Assembly: GCA_017524725.1 (NCBI GenBank) | Contig: JAFXUZ010000032.1 | Coordinates: 1 to 64,000 of the forward strand | Direction: 5' to 3' | DNA length: 64,000 nt | Source of the DNA: Clostridia bacterium | GTDB taxonomy: Bacteria; Bacillota; Clostridia; Christensenellales; Aristaeellaceae | The notes under the pieces: generated by a model | Seen by the model: the letters and a program-made list of their open reading frames with translations, nothing else | Told to the model about the DNA's origin: nothing | Database searches by the model: none | Shown: positions 25,015 to 39,310 of the stretch, one piece after another | How the letters are laid out: each line of letters begins with the position of its first letter | Position numbering within the stretch: the stretch's first letter is position 1 | Position numbers and translations under genes: made by a program

Positions 25015-25854
25015 TTATTCACCAGAAGAAGCAAGCAATGATTTCAGCTCTTTCGGGGAGTATACTCCATCCTTTTTACTGTGAAGAGCAGTATGACAAT
25101 TGGAACATACCGGTATCAAGTCAGTTATTGGATCCACAACATAATCTTCCCGTATTTCGCTGAGCGGGATAATATGATGTACCTCTATTCTCCCTGCAAA
25201 GTCAGGACCATATGCCTTTCCGAAGTCGAATCCACAAATCTGGCAAGCCGTCCCATAATGAGCAATGCACTTTTTCCGAGCTTCTGCGCTTCGTTCAAAC
25301 CGGTTTGCGCGGATGTTCGTCTCCTTGCCTTCGATCAATTCCTCATCTTCATCCAGCTTTGGAAATTTACGGATTATGTGTCCGTGATCCGTCAACCAGT
25401 GACGAAGTTCCATTTCGAAGAAAGGCAGCTCGAATTCAAAAATCTCATTCAGAACGTACTGTGCGTTCTGGATATCCGACCCAATACTGTACTTCCATTG
25501 CCGTATGGGAATAATGCCTTTTTCATTGGGGGCATCCACTGCGTTTGCGGCTCGGAGGAAACTGTCTATTCGCTTTTTTTGTGATTGGTTAAGGCCAGTT
25601 TCGCTCAGCGACAATTGAAAGAGAAGCGAAGTGCCGTCGTTGTATACTTCATACTGAAGCAGGCGGCCGGTCTTCCATGCGCCTACCTTACTCTTCAGAT
25701 TCGGCAGCAATTCTTCTGTGGCGTGTGTAGTGAATCGAATGCATCTGCTTCCTGAACAAAGCTCAGGTTGAAAATAGATACCCGATTCCTGTTCGCATCT
25801 CCCGGTAATCATGTTTCCAAGCAGCTGTTGGCGGACTTCAGCCTTCATATTCAT
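25015..25854 (-). CDS. HNH endonuclease
   Basis: The 279-residue protein ends in a McrA-type HNH domain: CQICGFDFGKAYG with the first Cys pair, EVHHIIPLSEI with the catalytic His, and DLIPVCSNCHTALHS with the second Cys pair. The N-terminal 190 residues are not recognised and may bind DNA or a modified base. The ATG at 25854 has AGGAG seven bases upstream. It follows the VWA gene after ten bases and is the last gene of the minus-strand series apart from TnpW, so it is probably part of the defence set. Confidence 0.82.
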   Translation of the reverse strand: MNMKAEVRQQLLGNMITGRCEQESGIYFQPELCSGSRCIRFTTHATEELLPNLKSKVGAWKTGRLLQYEVYNDGTSLLFQLSLSETGLNQSQKKRIDSFLRAANAVDAPNEKGIIPIRQWKYSIGSDIQNAQYVLNEIFEFELPFFEMELRHWLTDHGHIIRKFPKLDEDEELIEGKETNIRANRFERSAEARKKCIAHYGTACQICGFDFGKAYGPDFAGRIEVHHIIPLSEIREDYVVDPITDLIPVCSNCHTALHSKKDGVYSPKELKSLLASSGE

Positions 25855-25864
25855 AGCCATACTC

Positions 25865-27283
25865 CTAACGTTCCAGCGCAATCACAACTCCGTAAGGTTC
25901 CTGTACAGAAAGGTTTCGCACGTGATCAAATACTACCCAGATATTCCGGTATGTACGTGGTTTCGGAATTCTGCTTTCTCCATAACCATCGGTGAAATAG
26001 ATCATCAAAGCATCGCGATAATACCGATTATTGTTAATATAATCGATTGCCGGAGAAAACTCCGTGCCACCACGGCCGGCAACTTTTTTCTGTATATCTG
26101 ATGGTTTTGTGATACGGTATACACGCTGCACCTTTGAGTCGCACTCCAGAATTGTTATCTCATGTTTGCGTTTGGCAAGGATGCCAAATATCTCATTGAT
26201 AATCGCACTGATCATTTCATCATCAACCGACGCTGAGGTGTCAATGGCAACAATGATTTTCAGCACCTTGTCGTCCATCCTGCCGGACAGATCAAAACGT
26301 CCCGGCTGACGCCTGTTCAGTCTTGTTCTGGTTTTCCGCTTTTCGGCTGATATGGTTCCGACGTATCTTTTCAGGATCTGCTGCCAGGTGAGCTTTGGCG
26401 GACGGTTCAATAATTCCACCTGCGACATGAAATGCCCTGGCATCAATCCTCTGGCTTCGTCATTCATCATATCCACAGCGGCATTTACCAATTCCCGGAC
26501 TGCGGCGTCGGCATCCTCTTCATCGCCGCTTACCTGCCAATCATGATCGGTAAAGCTGCCTGTGTTATTGACAGTGATAATCGTCTGTCCCTTCTCTCCG
26601 TTGTCATCTCCGGATGAAGCGGCACTTCCTGTATCAGGCTGTCCGGCAACTCTTTCCATCATCCTCTGTGGCTGGTTCTGCGGCTGGCCTTCCGGATTAT
26701 TTCGGTCTTTGATGAGTTCAAAATAGTAACGGTAGTTCTCCGCGTGAGCAATCGATTTCAGTTCAAACGTCTTCGCCAGTACATCTGAAGTTATAGCTCC
26801 TTCCGGCTGGCGCATGAATTTATAGCCCCGGCTTTTGATTTCGTCATTGATGCGATCATTGACGGCAGCATCTGCAGCAAGGTTGAATTTCATCATCAAG
26901 TCGGGATCATCCCGGCCGAGCCTGACCATTTCCGATGGATGATTCAGCAGAATATGGTCGATCTCATGGCATACGACATAAATAATCTCTTTAAGCGAAA
27001 ACTCACACAGCAGAAGGGGGTTGCTCTGAAATACCGGAGGGAACTCATTCAGCAGGATTCCCGCGATCCCTTTGGATGAAAATTCCGCACGAAAAGAAAG
27101 GTTCATCAGGATGAATCCGTAATAGCTGTCGCGCTCGGAGATCAAAAACAGCTTGATCAGCTCCATCATCCGATGGAAATCCGCATCGATTTCTTCCAGA
27201 ATCGGCTGCGCTACTGTGCCGCTCTTTATCGTGCGTATGTTATCCTTGATCCGGAGCAGGACTGCGCTGATATCATTGTTCAT
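25865..27283 (-). CDS. DUF2201-type protein with metallopeptidase-like and VWA domains
   Basis: The 472-residue protein has an N-terminal domain with HEIDHILLNH at residues 106-115 (a zinc-type HExxH with a further His). A polar linker (about 200-240) follows, then a VWA-like domain starting KIIVAIDTSASVDDE, whose DxSxS motif binds a metal ion. VWA proteins of this kind work with MoxR ATPases, whose gene is directly upstream and overlaps by one base (TAATG). The pair probably remodels or inactivates a target protein or complex. Whether the peptidase-like site is active is not known. Confidence 0.8.
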   Translation of the reverse strand: MNNDISAVLLRIKDNIRTIKSGTVAQPILEEIDADFHRMMELIKLFLISERDSYYGFILMNLSFRAEFSSKGIAGILLNEFPPVFQSNPLLLCEFSLKEIIYVVCHEIDHILLNHPSEMVRLGRDDPDLMMKFNLAADAAVNDRINDEIKSRGYKFMRQPEGAITSDVLAKTFELKSIAHAENYRYYFELIKDRNNPEGQPQNQPQRMMERVAGQPDTGSAASSGDDNGEKGQTIITVNNTGSFTDHDWQVSGDEEDADAAVRELVNAAVDMMNDEARGLMPGHFMSQVELLNRPPKLTWQQILKRYVGTISAEKRKTRTRLNRRQPGRFDLSGRMDDKVLKIIVAIDTSASVDDEMISAIINEIFGILAKRKHEITILECDSKVQRVYRITKPSDIQKKVAGRGGTEFSPAIDYINNNRYYRDALMIYFTDGYGESRIPKPRTYRNIWVVFDHVRNLSVQEPYGVVIALER

Positions 27284-28611
27284 TACTTACTGCCCTCTAT
27301 GGCTGCTCGGGTTGCGTCCGACAGGTCCAACATCTCGATCAAATCCTGCTCAAATACGTCAAACAGCATCTCGATCAGGCTGTTCCCGTCCTCAGTCGTT
27401 GCCGACGAAAGATTCTGGGCAAACAGGAGGCGCGAGGAAGAATCCAGCTTCTGCACCAGAACAGAAAGCTGCTTCTTCGCTTTCTCAAAGCCGGCCTTGT
27501 CCAGCATCATGAATTCGATATTCTCCTTCAGATACCCAAGCATCAGATCACAGGTTTGAATACGCTTCCCTGTAGACATGCGGTCCAACTGGTCGCCAAG
27601 CTTTGTCAGATTCTCATCATCGGCAAAAATCTCCTCCGGCATGAGCGCTCGGGTCTGCGCGACAAGGCTTGCAAAGAACATGGTGGCAACGCTGGAACCC
27701 AGTTTGGCAGTCACCAGGCTCTTCATGTCTTTCTCTACTACCTTGGGATCGTTTTCCTTATCCGTGAAGAATACGCGCAGGAACGGTTCACTGGCAAGAA
27801 GGGTGTCCACCATATCCCAGCCACGCGGCGATGGCATCGGCTTTTCATCGTCGTTCAGTTCCTTGTCGCTGACTGAGAGGCACTTCGGATTATCCTTGAT
27901 AAAGCTCAGTATATCCGGCGAAATGCCCGCTTTCTTTCCGTAGCTCAGCCATTCCCTCGTGTTGTCGCCGACTTTGATCTTGATAAAGCGATCCAGCTGG
28001 GCAGGATCCATCTCGTTGGTGGCGTATACGCTGTTTTGGGTGCTGGGATTCATCGCGCCGACAAAGAAGACCCACCAGGGGAATTGATAGCCGTTCACAC
28101 TGCGTGTGAGCAATATGTTCATTAGTTCTTTATAAACTGTATTTTCGGTGCGGTTGATCTCATCGATAAATATGATGACCGGCTTTATCGCTCCACTGCG
28201 TATGGCGTTTATTTTCTCGGCCGGAGTAAGTTCATTCTGGGCAAACTTGTTTTCGTCCCCCAGAAGTGCGCTGCTTTCAACTGCGGTGCCATGCGACTGT
28301 TCGAAAATCTGCCGCTCTTCGTTCTGAATGCGTTCCACTGCGTAATAAGGGAGAAAGCGAAAACGAATCTGACCGGCTTCATCCTTGTACTGATAAGGCA
28401 GCCCAGTGATCTCGCCTTCCTTCAGCGTGCCGCCTTCAATGGTGATGCACACGCCGCCCAGTTCGTCCGCGATGCTCTTGATCATGGCGGATTTGCCGAT
28501 GCCGTGCTTACCGGAGACCAGCGGCGTAATGGCAAGATTCTTCTTCTCTGATACGAGGTTGGCGAGTATGGCGCGCTTTACCAGTCTTTTCGCTTCATTG
28601 ATGCTGATCAT
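27283..28611 (-). CDS. MoxR-like AAA ATPase
   Basis: The 442-residue protein has Walker A GKHGIGKS (34-41), Walker B VIIFIDEINR (about 144-153) and sensor-1-like VGAMNPS. Its C-terminal region is longer than in typical MoxR proteins. It overlaps the unknown gene upstream by four bases (ATGA) and the VWA gene downstream by one base, so the three are made together. MoxR ATPases with VWA partners act as chaperones that mature or remodel other proteins. In this context, between R-M genes, a defence role is inferred. Confidence 0.85.
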   Translation of the reverse strand: MISINEAKRLVKRAILANLVSEKKNLAITPLVSGKHGIGKSAMIKSIADELGGVCITIEGGTLKEGEITGLPYQYKDEAGQIRFRFLPYYAVERIQNEERQIFEQSHGTAVESSALLGDENKFAQNELTPAEKINAIRSGAIKPVIIFIDEINRTENTVYKELMNILLTRSVNGYQFPWWVFFVGAMNPSTQNSVYATNEMDPAQLDRFIKIKVGDNTREWLSYGKKAGISPDILSFIKDNPKCLSVSDKELNDDEKPMPSPRGWDMVDTLLASEPFLRVFFTDKENDPKVVEKDMKSLVTAKLGSSVATMFFASLVAQTRALMPEEIFADDENLTKLGDQLDRMSTGKRIQTCDLMLGYLKENIEFMMLDKAGFEKAKKQLSVLVQKLDSSSRLLFAQNLSSATTEDGNSLIEMLFDVFEQDLIEMLDLSDATRAAIEGSK

Positions 28612-29258
28612 AGCTTAACTCCTTTGATACGCAGGAATACATCCAGTTGTTTGGATCTGAGCGTCTTGTCTCTCCAGGGATTAACCCCCCTGGCAAGAAC
28701 TGTTTCCGCATCCAGATCCGCGTAATGCTTCATGAAGAAGCTTTCCGAGAACAGCTGATGCAGCGCGATGGCCTTCGAATCCAATATGGTAAAATATTTT
28801 TCCAGGAACTCCTCGCTGAACGGGATGCAGGCAAGCATCGCGTTCAGCTCCCAGTCCTTAAAAAGAGCAAAGTGAGCGACAACAAAATCTTCGTTGATGA
28901 TTACCGCTTCCTTAACGTACTTCTTGAATGCCGACTTGTAATCCTTCTCAGTTCGCATCCTCTGCAGGTCTGAAGCGATAACCTTCTCTGGCGGCACCGG
29001 AGGCGGCAAGGGAATACCTGTTGCCCCGGATGGGACAAGCCTGTCGGGAGACACGATCATTTGATCCGGGACAACTTTTTGTGTGTGCTCTACCGTCCTG
29101 GTTTCATTCGACCAGTTTTCGATCTCGCTGATGAGGGCTTTGCAGGATGCAATATATCCAGCGTCATAGTCGCCGGTATCCAGTTCCGCTCTCAGCAGAT
29201 CGAGTTCTTCCGGCAGCAGGTCTTTCCCGTTGTTTTTCAAGATCGACAATACATCCAT
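28608..29258 (-). CDS. unrecognised protein, first gene of the MoxR-VWA module
   Basis: This 216-residue cytoplasmic protein is not recognised. Residues 1-55 look helical, 56-95 form a proline-rich linker (GIPLPPPVPPEKV), and 96-216 look helical and leucine-rich. GGAGG lies seven bases before the ATG. It overlaps the MoxR gene by four bases, so it is almost certainly a functional partner of the MoxR-VWA pair, perhaps an adaptor or sensor. Confidence 0.65.
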   Translation of the reverse strand: MDVLSILKNNGKDLLPEELDLLRAELDTGDYDAGYIASCKALISEIENWSNETRTVEHTQKVVPDQMIVSPDRLVPSGATGIPLPPPVPPEKVIASDLQRMRTEKDYKSAFKKYVKEAVIINEDFVVAHFALFKDWELNAMLACIPFSEEFLEKYFTILDSKAIALHQLFSESFFMKHYADLDAETVLARGVNPWRDKTLRSKQLDVFLRIKGVKL

Positions 29259-29279: not shown

Positions 29280-30404
29280 TTAGCCGAAATATTTCTGCAT
29301 CAAACTATCAAACAGTAGTTGGGCTTCGTCTAAAGCCTTCTGCACGACAGCTTTTGATTTGTCGACCTGGGAGACGAAGGCGGCGAATCGTTCCTGCTGA
29401 TCCATTGGAGGAACAATGAATTCTTTATCTTCCAGCTTGGATTTCGACAGTATGCCTTTAAGGGCCATACTGATGTCCTCAACAAGATACTCTTTTGACA
29501 ATTGCAGCATCACGTATAAAAAGAGTGTGTTATATGATTCGGGAGTTATAGCATTGATCTGTTGGTTAAAAGACACTTTTCTGTCAGTAACACACACTCT
29601 TCCGATACTCGCTATACTTCCGGCAATACAAGCCATAAGTATAGAACCACTGTCAACTGTTCTTCCGGCTTTCATACCCTCTTCTGAAAGAGATTCAGTT
29701 GCTTTTGTTGGATTCAGGAGACCAGAAACAATATTGTCTGTTTTAATCCATTCAATATAGTCACCATAATACTCAGATACTGATCTGGACGGTGTGTTGC
29801 CAGTAACGACATTGCAAGTTTGCTTCAACTTCTTCTTCTCGAAGCCAAATGGATTTGATCGTGTATCCCCAAACATCTCGACAAATCGGGCTTTGATGAG
29901 ATCATCCATCCTCTGTAGCTCAGTCCGAAGGGAATCGATTATTCCAGATGCTCTCGATAGTACCCCGGCTATCTCATGCTGCTTTTCAAGAGAAGGGAAC
30001 GGCACAATGATATTATCGAAATCCTTCTTCACGATATGCTTCATTGTCGCTCCGTGGGTTTTGGATTCCATTTCAGTAAGATTATACTGGACAGCATAAA
30101 CAAAGTACTGTTTATCAACCCGGACCTTATCAAACACTACTTTAAATATATGCTGATTCAGCAGAGCTTTTCCCCTGTTCCAGATATAAACACCAAGACT
30201 CGCAGACCAGGAAATCAAGACATCTCCATCATTGATTTCTATGCGTTCTGGGTACTCACCATTGTAGAATCCTAAATCGTAAGCATTGCCAGTCAGATCC
30301 TGGATTCTGATAATTGGCAACCCTTCAGTGCCACGGTCTTCTGGTTTGAACGGGTATCCATTAATGTAGGAGGCAATATCACCAAGCTTTTTTACCTCAG
30401 ACAT
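29280..30404 (-). CDS. hsdS: type I restriction system specificity subunit HsdS (copy 1)
   Basis: The 374-residue protein has two target-recognition domains (about 1-130 and 195-320), each followed by a helical spacer. The central spacer includes LIKARFVEMFGDT and the C-terminal one ends VQKALDEAQLLFDSLMQKYFG. It gives DNA sequence specificity to HsdM and HsdR. AAGGAGGGG lies seven bases before the ATG. It is about 6 kb from the other hsdS and separated from hsdM by several modules. Its spacers are nearly identical in DNA to those of copy 2. Confidence 0.93.
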   Translation of the reverse strand: MSEVKKLGDIASYINGYPFKPEDRGTEGLPIIRIQDLTGNAYDLGFYNGEYPERIEINDGDVLISWSASLGVYIWNRGKALLNQHIFKVVFDKVRVDKQYFVYAVQYNLTEMESKTHGATMKHIVKKDFDNIIVPFPSLEKQHEIAGVLSRASGIIDSLRTELQRMDDLIKARFVEMFGDTRSNPFGFEKKKLKQTCNVVTGNTPSRSVSEYYGDYIEWIKTDNIVSGLLNPTKATESLSEEGMKAGRTVDSGSILMACIAGSIASIGRVCVTDRKVSFNQQINAITPESYNTLFLYVMLQLSKEYLVEDISMALKGILSKSKLEDKEFIVPPMDQQERFAAFVSQVDKSKAVVQKALDEAQLLFDSLMQKYFG

Positions 30405-30652: not shown

Positions 30653-31170
30653 TTATCCGATACAGTTCATAATCACGCTGACCACGGTTTCTTTTTCTTC
30701 CGGCCTGGACTCCGCCACAAGGATCGTCAGAGCCACCAATGTGTGATCGTCCAGGCGCTTGTTGCCGGTTTCGTCATACAGTTTGCCGTTCCGGTCCAGA
30801 AAGTACAGGAACAGGGCCGCGGCGATTCGTTTGTTGCCGTCACTGAAACTGTGATTTTTTGTCACAAGATAAAGCAGGTTTGCGGCTTTCTCCTCGGTGC
30901 TGGGGTAGACGTCCTGAGCGCCAAAGGTCTGATAGGAGGTCTCGAAGCGTTGCCACTGCTTCTGTCGAAAATTTCGACAGAAGCATTCTGATCCAATTCA
31001 CCCTCGCGGAAGATCTTCCCGATATGGTACGCAATGGATGACCTTGCTGTATCAAACAACGCGCTCATCTGCTCCTGTGTCAGCCATACAGTGTCTCGTT
31101 CCGGTGTAATTGGGACAGACAATTCCAGATCACCGCTGCTGAAAATGACCAGCCGCTCCTTGTCTGGCAT
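30653..31170 (-). pseudogene. RhuM-Fic fusion with a large internal deletion
   Basis: The N-terminal part (from ATG 31170) matches RhuM-type proteins (TVWLTQEQMSALFDTARSSI), and the C-terminal part matches a Fic/Doc domain (TKNHSFSDGNKRIAAALFLY). The two are in different frames and the middle of the normal protein is missing. The break falls on a 13+1+13-base perfect inverted repeat at 30958-30984. The Fic motif is intact, but no start gives a complete domain, so it is probably dead. It is flanked by two copies of the 16-bp seam repeat. Confidence 0.75.
30958..30984. repeat. perfect inverted repeat at the RhuM-Fic break
   Basis: GCTTCTGTCGAAA and its reverse complement flank a single central A. 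The frame changes from RhuM to Fic at this point, so the palindrome is probably the footprint of the deletion. Confidence 0.8.
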
Positions 31171-31192
31171 CCGATCATCCTTTCTGTGCTCT

Positions 31193-31208
31193 CCCACAAA
31201 TCCGAATT
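31193..31208 (-). repeat. 16-bp seam repeat, copy 2
   Basis: AATTCGGATTTGTGGG on the minus strand, just after the hsdR stop and before the RhuM-Fic remnant. Confidence 0.8.
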
Positions 31209-31211
31209 TCT

Positions 31212-34200
31212 TTACATCACCGGCTTATGCAGCCCATTGATCAGCTGTTTCACATAGCCGAACTTCGCCGCACCAAACAGTCCCATGATATCCATATCGC
31301 AGAACGGGCTGACCTTTAAAAGATCTGCGGCGGTAATGTCGCCGTTGGTGCGGGCGTAGTCGATGATTTGCTGCATGAAGGTCATCTGTGCTTCATCCAG
31401 CGTTTGATCATTCAGGAAGGAACCAAACTTAGTCTGAATCGCAGAATCATTGATGCCGGTCTGAATCCGCAGGAATGGCAGCAGCGGCATACTGCCCGAC
31501 CAGGCCTTATAGTCCGCCAGCGTGCCCAGCTGCACTGTAAACACATCGCTAAGTCCATTCTTTTCGTCATCCGAAAGCTCATCCAGATTGCGCAGCTTAG
31601 CCAGGGCAGGGCTGTCATTGTCGATGTATTCCCGGGCTTTTTCCACATAGCTCTTCCGGTGGACGAACGGGCCGGGATCATCAGAACCCGGATCAACAAT
31701 CCAGTCCGCCGTATCGATGATGTAATACCCTGGTTTGTCCGGGATATAGGTCATCAGATCACGAAGGTCCTTTCTGACCTGCTCGGCGCGCTCCAGGGAG
31801 AAATCATCCAGCAGATAGTCGCCGTGCATCATGGAAGTGATCAGCTTTTCCTTTTTAACGATATCTGGGATCGTCTTCAGCTTCAGCAGCTCTTCCATAC
31901 GTTCCGTCAATTCCTTGTCTACGCCAGAAAAACCATGCCGAATCTTTCGAGGGTCCTTGCCCTGCGCGATTCGCTCCATATATTCGGCCTCAATGGCATA
32001 GATGATCATATCGAAACTCTTTACCTTTGCCGGAGCAGAGATCGGCGGCAGCAGGGGAAGGATATGCGTATCGATCTCTTCAATACGATCTTCCGTCAGA
32101 CCGAGCCAGTTTTCCGCTGTGCGGTACTTGCTGACATAGGCCATGTTGTACTGCACTTCCACACTGTCGTTGCACAGCATCTGCGTGGTGTCAATAAAGT
32201 ATGCCTGCAGTTCATCTCTATAAGTCGCTTCAAAAGTGGAGGGAACCGCCATCTCCTGAAGCTGCCTGAGGATATTCAGCTTGTAGCGGTTCATCAGCAC
32301 GCTCTGCGGCGTGACGGCATAGGTCTTCTTGTCGGAGCTGCTTTCCACGGTGGACCAGGTATTGCCTGTGGAGAAGTAGCGGAAGTTGTCAAAATAATCG
32401 AAAATCAGGAACCCCTGCTTGTCCATTCCTGGGCCGAAAACATCGGCGCTCAGGCGGGTGCCGCGGCCGATCATCTGCAGGAACTTGATTTTGCTGCCGA
32501 CGGATTTGAAGAACACGAGGTTCAGTACATCCGGCACGTCGATGCCGGTATCCATCATATCTACGCTGACGGCAATCTGCGGAAGGCTGTCGCGCGCGCC
32601 GAAGGTATCGATCAAGGATAGATTGCCTTCCACCTGGCTGTCGATCAGCTTGCAGAAGTCGGGTCCAAGGTGCGCATACAGCTTCTGGAAACGCAGCACG
32701 ATCTGGACGGCTTCCACGTGGCTGGAGGCGAAAATGATCGTTTTTCCGATCTTGTCTCCCGCATTGATCTTGAGCCCGTTCTTCATCAGGTCATTCAGCA
32801 TGGCGTCGATCGTGCCCAGGTTGATGACACGCCTGCCGATCTGCCGGGCTTCGATTTCGGCTCCGGTAAAGTCGGTCTCGTCATCATCGCCTGTGAGGAA
32901 CGCGTCCTCAAAGCTGGCCTTTTCCTCTTCGGTCAAATCGTTGTAAGTAATGCCCCGTCGCATTTTATCGGTGGTCTTGTCCAGCACAGAAAAGCCTACC
33001 AGATACTTGTCCGCGATAGCGGCTTCCAGTTCATAAGCGTAATCCGGCTGTCCGTTCGGCAGCTGGAATACTTCATAGGTGCTCTTATTTTCCTCGTTGC
33101 GCGGCGTGGCGGTCAGACCGATGAGAAGAGCGTCGAAATAGTGGAACAGCGCGCCGTATTTGTTGAATACGCTGCGGTGTGCTTCGTCGATAATGATCAG
33201 GTCGAATCGTCCAATGCCGAACTCCCGCGTATCGTCGTCGATCAGGTTGATCATCGTCTGATAGGTGGAGAAGATGATGCGGGCATTGGGATCGCGGTTC
33301 ATGCTGGTGCCTGAATAGATGCTGGTGGTCACGTTGGGAAGCAGCTTATTGAAATTCTTATGCGCCTGACGGACAAGGCTGGTGCGGTCAGCCAGGAAGA
33401 GAATATTCTTCGCCCAGTTGGCTTTCATCAGCACATCGGACAGGGCGATGGAAACACGGGTCTTGCCCGTACCGGTAGCCATGACGATCAGGCTTGATCG
33501 GCGCATGCTCATGAACGCCTTGCAGCAGGCGGTGATAGCTTCTTTCTGATAATAGCGTCCCGTGATGTTGTCATCGATCTGCGGCGCGGATATATCCTGC
33601 CGGATCGCAGCGCGCAGCTTCAGAAGCTCCAACTCTTCGATAGAGTGGAACTGGAACACCCGGCGGGGCTTATAACCCAGCTGGTCGATCACAAAGATAT
33701 AGTACCCGTTCGTGTAGTAGGCGATCGGTTTATAGCCGTATTTCTGATTAAGCTGGTTTGCCTTGTCGATCACCTTCATGCGGCCCTCTACGGGGTTTTT
33801 GCATGTAGCTGTATATTCCACGATGGCCAGAGGTTTCCCATCCTTGCCATACATGACGTAATCGATATCGTCTCCGGAATCCAGATGGATCATGCACCCA
33901 ACAGCGCCGGGCAGGGACTGATGCGGCACGGAAACAATGGGCCATCCTGCCTCCCGGAGCGAGGCCTTCAGATAGAGCTCACGGTTTTCGCTCTCGTCGC
34001 GGCCATGTTTCACATCAAAGTGTGTATACCGCATCCTGGGGCCGTATTTGGCAACGATCTCCGGCGCGACAGCGACTTTTTCTTTTGCAGCTTCCGCCGG
34101 TTTGGCAGGAGCCGCCGGAGCTGGAGCGGGTACGGCTTTAGGCGAAGCGGCAGGGGCAGGCGCGGCGGTCTGTATGCCGGGTTTCACAAACTCCGGATAA

Positions 34201-34583
34201 TCAGTTTCCAGTCCCAGCAGGATACAGGTTTCACCCACAAGGAAATGCAGCTGTTCCAAAACGTTGACAGCCTCGTCTACAGTCAGGGTGCCGTCATGCG
34301 CCGCCACGTTGCCCATCTTCCGGATGATGTGGATCGTGTTGATGATCGTTTGATCCTGTATATAGTCCACAAACGCCTGGTCCGTGACCATTTCAAAGAT
34401 GGTCATGCTGTAGGCGGGCGTGCCAATGCAGGAGGAGTAGATCAGCTTAACGATAAACTCCATGGCTTTCCGGGAGGAAATGGCGCTGCTGGTTGGAAAA
34501 AGCGTCGCAAGCGCCTCCGCTTCATGGCAGTGTTTATACAGAACCTTCAAATCCCCGTGGGATTGCAAATAATCAAAGTTCAT
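31212..34583 (-). CDS. hsdR: type I restriction system endonuclease subunit HsdR
   Basis: This 1123-residue motor subunit has an N-terminal DUF4145-like helical domain (1-130), an Ala/Pro linker (139-164), a nuclease-like region (about 195-300), and a superfamily 2 helicase core with MATGTGKT (368-375), IIDEAHRS and GLTATP. A long C-terminal assembly region follows. In the nuclease motif Asp241 and Glu256 are present, but the usual E-x-K reads E-Y-T, so the catalytic lysine is not in its normal place. AGGAGG lies seven bases before the ATG. It follows the mini-ATPase gene. Confidence 0.93.
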   Translation of the reverse strand: MNFDYLQSHGDLKVLYKHCHEAEALATLFPTSSAISSRKAMEFIVKLIYSSCIGTPAYSMTIFEMVTDQAFVDYIQDQTIINTIHIIRKMGNVAAHDGTLTVDEAVNVLEQLHFLVGETCILLGLETDYPEFVKPGIQTAAPAPAASPKAVPAPAPAAPAKPAEAAKEKVAVAPEIVAKYGPRMRYTHFDVKHGRDESENRELYLKASLREAGWPIVSVPHQSLPGAVGCMIHLDSGDDIDYVMYGKDGKPLAIVEYTATCKNPVEGRMKVIDKANQLNQKYGYKPIAYYTNGYYIFVIDQLGYKPRRVFQFHSIEELELLKLRAAIRQDISAPQIDDNITGRYYQKEAITACCKAFMSMRRSSLIVMATGTGKTRVSIALSDVLMKANWAKNILFLADRTSLVRQAHKNFNKLLPNVTTSIYSGTSMNRDPNARIIFSTYQTMINLIDDDTREFGIGRFDLIIIDEAHRSVFNKYGALFHYFDALLIGLTATPRNEENKSTYEVFQLPNGQPDYAYELEAAIADKYLVGFSVLDKTTDKMRRGITYNDLTEEEKASFEDAFLTGDDDETDFTGAEIEARQIGRRVINLGTIDAMLNDLMKNGLKINAGDKIGKTIIFASSHVEAVQIVLRFQKLYAHLGPDFCKLIDSQVEGNLSLIDTFGARDSLPQIAVSVDMMDTGIDVPDVLNLVFFKSVGSKIKFLQMIGRGTRLSADVFGPGMDKQGFLIFDYFDNFRYFSTGNTWSTVESSSDKKTYAVTPQSVLMNRYKLNILRQLQEMAVPSTFEATYRDELQAYFIDTTQMLCNDSVEVQYNMAYVSKYRTAENWLGLTEDRIEEIDTHILPLLPPISAPAKVKSFDMIIYAIEAEYMERIAQGKDPRKIRHGFSGVDKELTERMEELLKLKTIPDIVKKEKLITSMMHGDYLLDDFSLERAEQVRKDLRDLMTYIPDKPGYYIIDTADWIVDPGSDDPGPFVHRKSYVEKAREYIDNDSPALAKLRNLDELSDDEKNGLSDVFTVQLGTLADYKAWSGSMPLLPFLRIQTGINDSAIQTKFGSFLNDQTLDEAQMTFMQQIIDYARTNGDITAADLLKVSPFCDMDIMGLFGAAKFGYVKQLINGLHKPVM

Positions 34584-36624: not shown

Positions 36625-37803
36625 CTATCCGAAGTATTTTTGCATTAAGCTATCAAACAACAACTGCGCTTCATCCAGCGCCTTCTGCACGACAACTTTT
36701 GATTTGTCGACCTGAGCAGAAAACTCCACGAACCTTACCTGTTCTGCAATAGGAGGCAATGGAAATTCGAGATTCCTACATTGTTCAAGACTCAAGTTTA
36801 ATTGCCTAATTCCAACAGCCTGTTCCACGAAAGGTCCTAATACCTTTGGTTGCATCAATGCTGCCAACAAATATCTTGGAAGAACATCATTTTGCGATCT
36901 AAAAATGGCAATAGCCTGGTTGATATTCCATTCTGCAAACTCATTAGTAACAAGTGAAAACTTCCCTAGTGGCGGTCCAACAATGTTCATCAACACATCA
37001 TTCGGGTAAACTTTTGAACGAGCCAGTTTACCATTGTGGATTGTTGCTGGAATATACTGTGGTTCAGCGTCAAAAAGGAGTTCCCCTGTAAAGCTTAAAT
37101 TATAGACTTTTAGGAAGGGGATCAGGCCAGTTTCATATTCGAATACTATCTCATCAGTTGGTGGAGTAGTACCCTTAGTGATAAAGTCGCATACTTCAGC
37201 AGCTTTAACAGTTCTGTACTTCCCACCCCCAAACATCTCGATAAATCGGGCTTTGATGAGGGTGTCGAGGGCGAGAAGCTGTTGCGTGTAAGCATCAATT
37301 GTTGACCGAACTTTCTGAAGGATCTGAGTTATTTCGGTTTGTTCAGTCAAATCAGGCAGATCAATGCTGAAGTTTCGTATACTTGCCGCAGAAAGATTTG
37401 GCTGTGAACTACCGTTATTAGCCATTGCAAGCTGTTCATGAATATCGGAAGAGTCAAGCGCAAGCATCAGATATTCACTTTTAATAAAAGTTGGATTTGG
37501 TCTGATGATTACTAAAGATGATGCAATCGCTCCCTTTACTTCATCTCCCACTATAGCTTTTTTACCTAATGACCCTCGTAGGCAATAAAGAATATCACCC
37601 GTAGTGAATTTACCGGAATTCAAACTATTATATTTTTCTAACGAAATATAATTCATGTCACTGAATTCTATTTCTCTTCCATTAAGATGACCAGCATTGA
37701 CAAAAGGTACTTCACCACTTGAGGATATATCCTCTTGTGATGGATAATTTTTCCCTCTGTCTCCATTAATCAATGTGGCGATTTCTCCCAGCGTTACTTT
37801 CAT
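36625..37803 (-). CDS. hsdS: type I restriction system specificity subunit HsdS (copy 2)
   Basis: The 392-residue protein has two target-recognition domains with unrelated sequence to copy 1. Its spacers are shared with copy 1: LIKARFIEMFG in the centre and VQKALDEAQLLFDSLMQKYFG at the end. It lies 43 bases downstream of hsdM, the normal position for the active specificity gene. The ATG at 37803 is preceded by GGGGGTGTGGGG, part of the seam repeat region. Confidence 0.93.
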   Translation of the reverse strand: MKVTLGEIATLINGDRGKNYPSQEDISSSGEVPFVNAGHLNGREIEFSDMNYISLEKYNSLNSGKFTTGDILYCLRGSLGKKAIVGDEVKGAIASSLVIIRPNPTFIKSEYLMLALDSSDIHEQLAMANNGSSQPNLSAASIRNFSIDLPDLTEQTEITQILQKVRSTIDAYTQQLLALDTLIKARFIEMFGGGKYRTVKAAEVCDFITKGTTPPTDEIVFEYETGLIPFLKVYNLSFTGELLFDAEPQYIPATIHNGKLARSKVYPNDVLMNIVGPPLGKFSLVTNEFAEWNINQAIAIFRSQNDVLPRYLLAALMQPKVLGPFVEQAVGIRQLNLSLEQCRNLEFPLPPIAEQVRFVEFSAQVDKSKVVVQKALDEAQLLFDSLMQKYFG

Positions 37804-37812
37804 CCCCACACC

Positions 37813-37828
37813 CCCACAAATCCGAATT
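37813..37828 (-). repeat. 16-bp seam repeat, copy 3
   Basis: AATTCGGATTTGTGGG on the minus strand between hsdM and hsdS copy 2. Confidence 0.8.
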
Positions 37829-37846
37829 TGTCGGATCCCTTTCTTT

Positions 37847-39310
37847 TTATTCTCCCAGCAGTTTCCGGAGCGCTTTTGTTTCCTCTTCGATCTGGGCATT
37901 CAGCCTGTCCAGCTCGTCCAGGATCTCGCTGGTAGGCGGGTACTCCACCGCGACGTAATCCGTCTTCTTGTACTTGTTGATGGAAAGATCGTAGTCGTTG
38001 TCAACGATCTCCTGCTTCGGCACAAAGAAGCTCTGTTCGGTACGTTCGCGTCCTTCCTCGGGGGCCAGATCATGGAACCGCGCAATGATGTCGGGGATAT
38101 CGTTGGCGTCAATGGGGCTGCGCTTGTCGTCCAGGCTGAAGCCGTCGGCCTTCATATCGTAGAACCATACTTTGTCCGTACCGCCATGGCCAGTCTTGGT
38201 GAAGATCAGGATGGCCGTGGAAACGCCGGCGTAGGGCTTGAACACGCCGGAAGGCATGGAGATGACCGCCTCCAGACGATTGAATTCCACCAGCTCCTGC
38301 CGCAGCGCCTTGTGCGCCTTGGAGGAACCAAACAGCACGCCATCCGGCACGATGGACGCGCAGCGGCCGCCTACCTTCAGCGCTTTCAGGAACAGCGCCA
38401 GGAACAGCAACTCCGTTTTCTTGGTGGGCGCAATCGCCAGCAGGTCCTTGGAGATGGTCTCCTTATCCAGACTACCGGTGAAGGGCGGGTTAGCCATAAT
38501 GAGGGAGTATTCCTCGCGATGGGTATTGTCTTCGGAAAGGGAATCCATCCAGGTGATATTGGGAGCCTCCACACCATGCAGCATCATGTTCATGGCGCCG
38601 ATGCGCAGCATGGTTTGATCGGTGTCAAAGCCGGTAAACATAGTGGTAATGTAGTGCTGCTTGGCGGACTTCTGCATCAGCTCTTTGGCATAGTGCTCGG
38701 AAATGTACTGAGCCGCAGCACAGATAAACCCTGCTGAGCCCATGGCCGGATCGCAAATGGTGTCCTCCAGCGTGGGCTTCATCAGTTCTACCATCATTTT
38801 GATGATGTGGCGCGGCGTGCGGAACTGGCCATTGGTGCCGCTCTGGGCGATCTGGGAGAGCAGGTATTCGTACACATCGCCCATGATGTCCTTGTTGTTC
38901 AGATCCAGGCTGTCCAGCGCGTCGACCACCTTCACCAGCACCCGGGCGGTGGGCACAAGGAACAGAGCGTCCTTCATATAGCGGGCAAAAGCCGTGTCCT
39001 TTCCGGCATTCAGCTCGTTCTTAATGAAGGGAAACACCTTGTCCGTCATGTTGCTGAACATGGCGTCAGCGTCATAGTGGCGGAAATTGCTCCAGCGGCA
39101 GTTCTGGTGATCCTTGTCGAAGATTGGATCGACTACAGGCATATCAAACGCGGCCGCGTTGGCTTCCTTGCGAAGCTCGTTGTCGTCCAGTATTTTGATG
39201 AACATCAGGTAGGTGATCTGCTCGATGACCGTCAGTGGATTAGTCATGCCGGAAGACCAGAAGATATCCCAAATGCCGTCGATCTTGTTTCTCAATTCGC
39301 CTGTAATCAT
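37847..39310 (-). CDS. hsdM: type I restriction system N6-adenine methyltransferase HsdM
   Basis: The 487-residue protein has the HsdM N-terminal helical domain, then the SAM-binding motif DPAMGSAGF (about 188-196) and the catalytic IMANPPF (about 263-269) of N6-adenine methylases. It methylates the sites selected by HsdS and protects host DNA. AAGGAG precedes the ATG. The XRE gene ends 33 bases upstream, and both are read from the promoter at 39606-39634. Confidence 0.96.
   Translation of the reverse strand: MITGELRNKIDGIWDIFWSSGMTNPLTVIEQITYLMFIKILDDNELRKEANAAAFDMPVVDPIFDKDHQNCRWSNFRHYDADAMFSNMTDKVFPFIKNELNAGKDTAFARYMKDALFLVPTARVLVKVVDALDSLDLNNKDIMGDVYEYLLSQIAQSGTNGQFRTPRHIIKMMVELMKPTLEDTICDPAMGSAGFICAAAQYISEHYAKELMQKSAKQHYITTMFTGFDTDQTMLRIGAMNMMLHGVEAPNITWMDSLSEDNTHREEYSLIMANPPFTGSLDKETISKDLLAIAPTKKTELLFLALFLKALKVGGRCASIVPDGVLFGSSKAHKALRQELVEFNRLEAVISMPSGVFKPYAGVSTAILIFTKTGHGGTDKVWFYDMKADGFSLDDKRSPIDANDIPDIIARFHDLAPEEGRERTEQSFFVPKQEIVDNDYDLSINKYKKTDYVAVEYPPTSEILDELDRLNAQIEEETKALRKLLGE

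Follow-up and report, generated by a model that had tools for sequence, protein, structure and literature searches.

A MoxR, metallopeptidase-vWA and HNH gene module linked to a type I restriction HsdR lineage with an altered nuclease site

We describe a compact gene set, encoding a small helical protein (UNK), a MoxR-type AAA+ ATPase, a zincin-vWA protein (VWA) and often an HNH endonuclease, that recurs in some gut bacteria behind one lineage of type I restriction-modification (R-M) HsdR subunits. The position of this set beside an HsdR that has lost its cutting signature suggests, as far as sequence can indicate, that it took over the attack step or gates it. Our leading interpretation, in which we place a little less than even confidence, is that the module serves as an accessory effector or switch of one type I R-M lineage, with HsdR surveying DNA and the attack being handed to, or gated by, UNK-MoxR-VWA-HNH. 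A stricter version is offered more tentatively: the type I motor HsdR would be a nuclease-null reporter of foreign DNA, and the attack would proceed via an ATP-driven, protease-equipped MoxR-VWA switch together with HNH. The earlier note on this DNA had missed both the tie to HsdR and the loss of its canonical nuclease signature.

The window, that is, the whole stretch of 64,000 nucleotides that was analysed, carries the module next to a type I set in the order hsdM, hsdS, hsdR and second hsdS, all on the reverse strand. HsdM (37847..39310) shows the intact motifs of an N6-methyltransferase (DPAMGSAGF and NPPF) and an N6_Mtase match (4e-67), and HsdS has the Methylase_S match of a specificity subunit (3.2e-39). 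The first hsdS spans 36625..37899, with the start as in the ORF list, the true start possibly lying further in; hsdR spans 31212..34583, and the second hsdS (29280..30404) lies directly upstream of UNK. The module follows on the same strand with UNK (29258-28608, 216 aa), MoxR (28611-27283, 442 aa), VWA (27283-25865, 472 aa) and HNH (25854-25015, 279 aa). These coordinates bear out the tight packing described in the earlier note: UNK and MoxR overlap by 4 bases (ATGA), MoxR and VWA by 1 base (TAATG), and the HNH ATG, preceded by AGGAG at a distance of 7 bases, lies 10 bases past the VWA stop. For HNH, the ORF list gives a TTG start at 25881; a 279-aa homologue in locus L014 favors the ATG at 25854.

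Several other features of the R-M region were observed. Between hsdS and hsdR, the segment 34622-36170 (reverse strand) encodes a P-loop ATPase that weakly matches AriA/GajA, a DUF4869 protein and, judged by eye, a TOPRIM-like protein of 229 aa; by appearance only, this cassette recalls PARIS-like guards of R-M systems, and DUF4869 recurs in three related loci (L013 3258-4807, L021 1195-2634 and L025 683-1126). A truncated ORF at 30862-31197 (reverse strand), flanked by hsdR and the second hsdS, resembles RhuM by eye and gave no Pfam match. The two hsdS genes have in common a direct repeat of 131 nt (74%) at their 3′ ends (29281-29411 and 36626-36756), as well as a 34-nt repeat (97%), which would suit hsdS recombination, and a recombinase-like gene was seen by eye near hsdS in L021, L025 and L105.

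The known functional motifs of the module proteins are preserved throughout. MoxR matches Pfam AAA/AAA_5 and retains Walker A, Walker B, sensor 1, the DPAQLDRF stretch and sensor 2 in 17/17 sequences. Its partner VWA matches DUF2201 (1e-18) and DUF2201_N (5.5e-13), both above cut-off, and combines HExxH with a MIDAS, as in the DUF2201 metallopeptidase-vWA family. The HExxH-H site pointed out previously was recovered in the alignment as HEIDH at residues 106-110 followed by invariant H115 and D138 (the zincin metal site, 26870..26968 on the reverse strand, from HEIDH to D138), and CHEI[DE]H, the AAD motif and DTSxS were retained in 14/14. The vWA domain (343-471) runs to the end of the protein, which carries no C-terminal effector domain. 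HNH matches Pfam HNH (4.4e-9), and its histidines and zinc cysteines are retained in 10/10, as in HNH endonucleases; a motif check placed these cysteines and the EVHH and [SP]NCH motifs at 25075..25245 (reverse strand).

The predicted model of HNH shows two domains with confidence (mean pLDDT 85), of which the C-terminal one is similar to the HNH portions of McrA and Cap5 and the N-terminal one is weakly like YbjN and secretion chaperones, both at Z ~6, near background. The N-terminal part also gave a partial match to the PADLOC candidate PDC-S26 (3e-9). UNK had no significant match in a Pfam search and is modelled as an all-helical protein that contains a disordered linker and carries a repeat domain at its C-terminus; its best structural matches were viral helical-repeat proteins with weak E-values. 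Structure comparison thus placed neither UNK nor the HNH N-terminal domain in a family, yielding weak matches only. Kinship of UNK with DUF4116 was considered and set aside, since hhalign gave a probability of 0.3% and the helical repeats common to both do not establish homology. Mean pairwise distances were lowest for MoxR (0.24), intermediate for HsdR and VWA (~0.4) and highest for the fastest-evolving UNK and HNH (~0.55).

The UNK-MoxR-VWA order, counted where the contig reaches VWA, is common to 16 further loci, mostly from Clostridia MAGs and one from an isolate (L021, Emergencia sp. 1XD21-10). Fifteen came from a MoxR search of a genome collection (L100, from G879, duplicates L017 and the two were counted once) and one more from a phage collection, this last (MT838194) being an unverified fecal contig with hsdR-UNK-MoxR. 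The 216-residue UNK is present in all related loci. The UNK-MoxR-VWA genes overlap or stand no more than a few bases apart everywhere but in L018, which has a 477-base UNK-MoxR gap, and recurrence of the gene order with such tight spacing argues that the arrangement is not due to chance. A type I hsdR is found upstream of UNK in 14/15 testable loci, mostly 4-33 bp away; an extra hsdS separates the two genes in the window and L013, and the gaps reach ~160-210 bp in L016 and L026. The earlier proposal of a coherent module attached to R-M genes is supported by these data. The hosts belong to several families of Clostridia, plus one Gastranaerophilales MAG contig that is possibly mis-binned. In L027 (6798-9330), HsdR is missing 461 residues at its N-terminus and overlaps with an HsdM-like fragment, reflecting either decay or an assembly fault; the module behind it is intact.

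The module is rare and patchy, and it is no housekeeping pair in close relatives. A full-length module MoxR was found in 1/396 genomes of the order by MoxR search and UNK in 1/398 genomes of the phylum by UNK profile, while a wider MoxR profile detected the module in 2/391 genomes of the class and, in addition, a single DUF4116-type cassette. The genome to which the window belongs contains DUF2201 just once, at this locus, and together with the rarity of the module this argues against the housekeeping role that the earlier note had regarded as fatal to its idea. The rejection holds for close relatives: distant cassettes of ~30% identity (helical-repeat protein-MoxR-VWA) are chromosomal in Clostridia, with similar metabolic neighbours in two genomes (L102 and L103). 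A phage-borne module was also considered and rejected, as MoxR, UNK and VWA scans of viral contigs returned no module and a DUF4116 cassette only; a wider MoxR scan adds distant phage MoxR-VWA pairs.

HNH is a frequent but non-obligatory member of the module. It follows VWA in 11/14 testable loci, and tblastn finds none in L019, L020 and L023, although these contigs continue for kilobases, which excludes HNH as a strict partner; on the weakly resolved MoxR tree, its presence requires 1-2 changes. Linkage of HNH, on which the earlier note had staked its hypothesis, therefore stands for most loci and fails in three. The same holds for the protein-remodelling switch controlling a nuclease that it had proposed: the module is coherent, as such a switch would need to be, but nuclease control cannot be its whole function given the three loci in which HNH is absent.

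The steadier and tightest partner of the module is HsdR rather than HNH. In a tree built without the nuclease region, all 10 full-length module HsdRs group in one clade with support 100, and the branch leading to it is the longest inner one (1.16 changes per column). Module-linked HsdRs are 59-93% identical to that of the window, as compared with 40.5% for the best of 49 module-less HsdRs, and no module genes were found in four wider regions around module-less HsdRs (14-19 kb; closest relatives included); for the closest of these, the absence holds within 16-19 kb. Pairwise HsdR distances correlate with those of UNK (r 0.82), MoxR (0.78), VWA (0.86) and HNH (0.76), values reached 0 or 1 times per 2000 in a permutation test. 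As linked genes have common descent, these correlations point to inheritance as a unit rather than to contact, and this partly counts against a hand-over of the attack. So does L014 (1-5000), in which UNK-MoxR-VWA-HNH is intact and only a 110-aa hsdS remnant lies upstream, an hsdR being absent from the 4.6 kb of available sequence. This locus would agree with a separate defence system whose inheritance alongside a single type I lineage in defence islands is incidental, the change in HsdR being unrelated. Similar cassettes next to a type II R-M (L029) or alone (L101), together with the single origin of the HsdR change, could be read in the same way. We nevertheless regard such independence as quite improbable, given the presence of hsdR upstream in nearly all testable loci, mostly at very short distances and across several Clostridia families, and the single clade that holds all 10 full-length adjoining HsdRs.

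We next compared the nuclease sites of these 10 full-length module HsdRs with those of the 49 module-less HsdRs from the same order and class. The ExK lysine is found in 0/10 module HsdRs (9 T, 1 R) and in 48/49 module-less ones, and both letters of QxxxY in 0/10 and 48/49, respectively, such that the PD-(D/E)xK and QxxxY signature of type I R-M is missing from the module HsdRs. In the window (HsdR residues 241-274; 33762..33863, reverse strand), the ExK lysine is replaced by T258 and QxxxY by K270...K274. Acidic residues D241 and E256 are retained in 10/10, nine of the ten module HsdRs have a lysine where the Q used to be, and the helicase motifs MATGTGKTR (Walker A) and DEAHR are intact. Consistently, Pfam HSDR_N models match the sister HsdR of L033 and neither that of the window nor that of L021. 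Among ten distant HsdR-like proteins of viral contigs, nine have ExK and QxxxY by pattern and L107 matched QxxxY only. One module-less HsdR (L052/L104, 1537-4992) has a degenerate nuclease motif (EAIGS), on a very long branch and with non-R-M neighbours.

Since a single clade on a long stem holds the module HsdRs, loss of the nuclease motif is a single evolutionary event, and its link to the module is not a repeated correlation. Mutational data show what such a loss can entail: in EcoR124I, K167A abolished cleavage and phage restriction and left the translocation rate near normal, and EcoAI motif mutants showed no restriction (PMC2602864). From the motif changes, we predict with fair confidence that the module HsdRs are nuclease-null. 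Within this nuclease superfamily, cases are known in which the catalytic lysine has moved to a helix. The lysine at the former Q position could be such a migrated residue, in which case the module HsdR may still cut.

We propose the following sequence of events, in which contacts, direction and activities are conjectural. HsdM and HsdS, judging from their intact domains, would mark self DNA and recognise unmethylated DNA. HsdR would bind and translocate, probably without cutting through a canonical PD-(D/E)xK site, and UNK would act as a helical-repeat adaptor reading translocating or stalled HsdR. UNK would then engage the MoxR ring with its zincin-vWA partner, a pairing suggested by the conserved order of the genes and by precedent in the family. 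Remodelling driven by ATP, whether or not accompanied by proteolysis, would release or position the HNH nuclease, which would cut DNA instead of HsdR. In HNH-less lineages, the end point would need to be either the MoxR-protease step or a nuclease that is not linked. This proposal is supported by the conserved UNK-MoxR-VWA order with hsdR upstream, by the loss of ExK and QxxxY in all full-length module HsdRs, by the ability of EcoR124I K167A to translocate without cutting (PMC2602864) and by the intact HNH, zincin, MIDAS and MoxR motifs. Replacement by HNH cannot be obligatory, since L020 and L023 have an altered HsdR, yet no HNH.

Loci without HNH are readily accounted for by the main rival of this proposal, dedicated proteolytic control of HsdR, which we rate as possible but rather doubtful. 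Here, UNK-MoxR-VWA would be an operon-encoded counterpart of ClpXP that strips or proteolyses HsdR translocating on host DNA, with HNH optional. A precedent exists, as ClpXP degrades translocating EcoKI HsdR whose nuclease activity is unnecessary for this, and in naive hosts the EcoKI motor is toxic even when nuclease-null (PMC4231737); a zincin-bearing AAA+ partner adjoining hsdR fits as well. However, with the HsdR nuclease signature gone, HNH-less loci would be left with no weapon to control unless HsdR still cuts, and the protease activity of such DUF2201 proteins is putative. The tight linkage and co-inheritance with hsdR would also suit a dedicated client of an assembly factor, MoxR-VWA maturing or assembling an HsdR-containing (or HNH) complex in the style of RavA-ViaA or NorQ-NorD, with no infection switch. 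The best-studied MoxR-VWA pairs are client-specific assembly or metal-insertion machines (PMC9976466, PMC10585395). We nonetheless consider this explanation unlikely, because related type I systems of the same order and class do without such a factor, and it leaves the altered nuclease motif and the protease domain unexplained.

The prevailing picture of type I enzymes is one of self-contained motor-nucleases. If attack is indeed handed over or gated, an HsdR lineage with a changed nuclease site and a MoxR-protease module would mean that the motor can serve other effectors as a sensor and that restriction can be gated by protein remodelling. MoxR-vWA conflict systems, which are mainly genomic predictions, would gain a testable trigger, namely, unmethylated DNA with a definable recognition site. 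Proteolytic control, as the alternative, would be placed within HsdR's own operon.

The earlier view that the module lies outside the standard named defence types agrees with our searches: PADLOC-DB and NCBIfam hold no covering system and no models for UNK, MoxR or VWA of this kind, apart from a marginal match to Cas2 and a weak one to MadB for MoxR. The arrangement was not described in the open-access literature searched, an absence that is no proof of novelty. The closest plan is that of the MoxR-vWA ternary conflict systems (VMAP, iSTAND, FtsH, beta-propeller), which share the order third component-MoxR-vWA and for which an ATP-dependent threshold switch feeding an effector has been proposed (PMC7159879). 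Unlike these, the module is tied to a type I HsdR, in Clostridia. VMAP membership was rejected on three features: UNK is small and modelled with helices only, whereas VMAP-C is alpha+beta with 7 strands; MoxR, whose P-loop starts from residue 34, has no room for the N-terminal extension (WxhapG and PsWRxa motifs); and the vWA protein carries an N-terminal zincin in place of a C-terminal effector tail.

Phages encode a homologous MoxR with a partner of identical zincin-vWA architecture (jumbo phages, PMC7824862; N4-like phages, phrog_1297 and phrog_1314), for which assistance in virion assembly was proposed (PMC7824862) and HsdR, UNK or HNH partners are not reported. A protein family that carries the label "HNH endonuclease" in PHROGs (phrog_1314) and in RefSeq records of N4-like phages matches the zincin-vWA (DUF2201) protein and looks misannotated. 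In a further phage pair (L055 8001-11066; MoxR 35% identical), NEIMK replaces HEIDH, and this VWA is probably a dead protease that retained its vWA part. An equal three-gene plan is seen in the DUF4116-MoxR-VWA cassette beside SacI-type R-M (L029 and L030; MoxR 46% and VWA 37% identical), which differs in its first gene, another helical-repeat protein without detectable UNK homology, in its type II R-M and in the absence of HNH; in G820 (L101), the cassette has no R-M nearby. Together with the distant metabolic-gene cassettes, this indicates that a plan of variable helical-repeat protein-MoxR-vWA exists outside type I R-M. Compared with CBASS Cap5 (SAVED joined to HNH), the HNH part of the module nuclease gave a near-background likeness (Z ~6), and its other domain fell into no family; in Cap5 the HNH part is N-terminal. 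ClpXP alleviation of EcoKI (PMC4231737) would follow equal logic, in that an AAA+ machine and its peptidase would act on HsdR during translocation; the module peptidase is, however, unrelated and putative, and its genes are hsdR-linked. Finally, type I R-M systems with EcoEI/EcoAI-like HsdR share HsdM, HsdS and the HsdR motor and EcoEI_R_C domains with the window, whose HsdR differs by lacking ExK and QxxxY and by the four extra genes behind it. The module is best read as a type I R-M variant in which the new element is the UNK-MoxR-VWA(-HNH) set on an altered HsdR.
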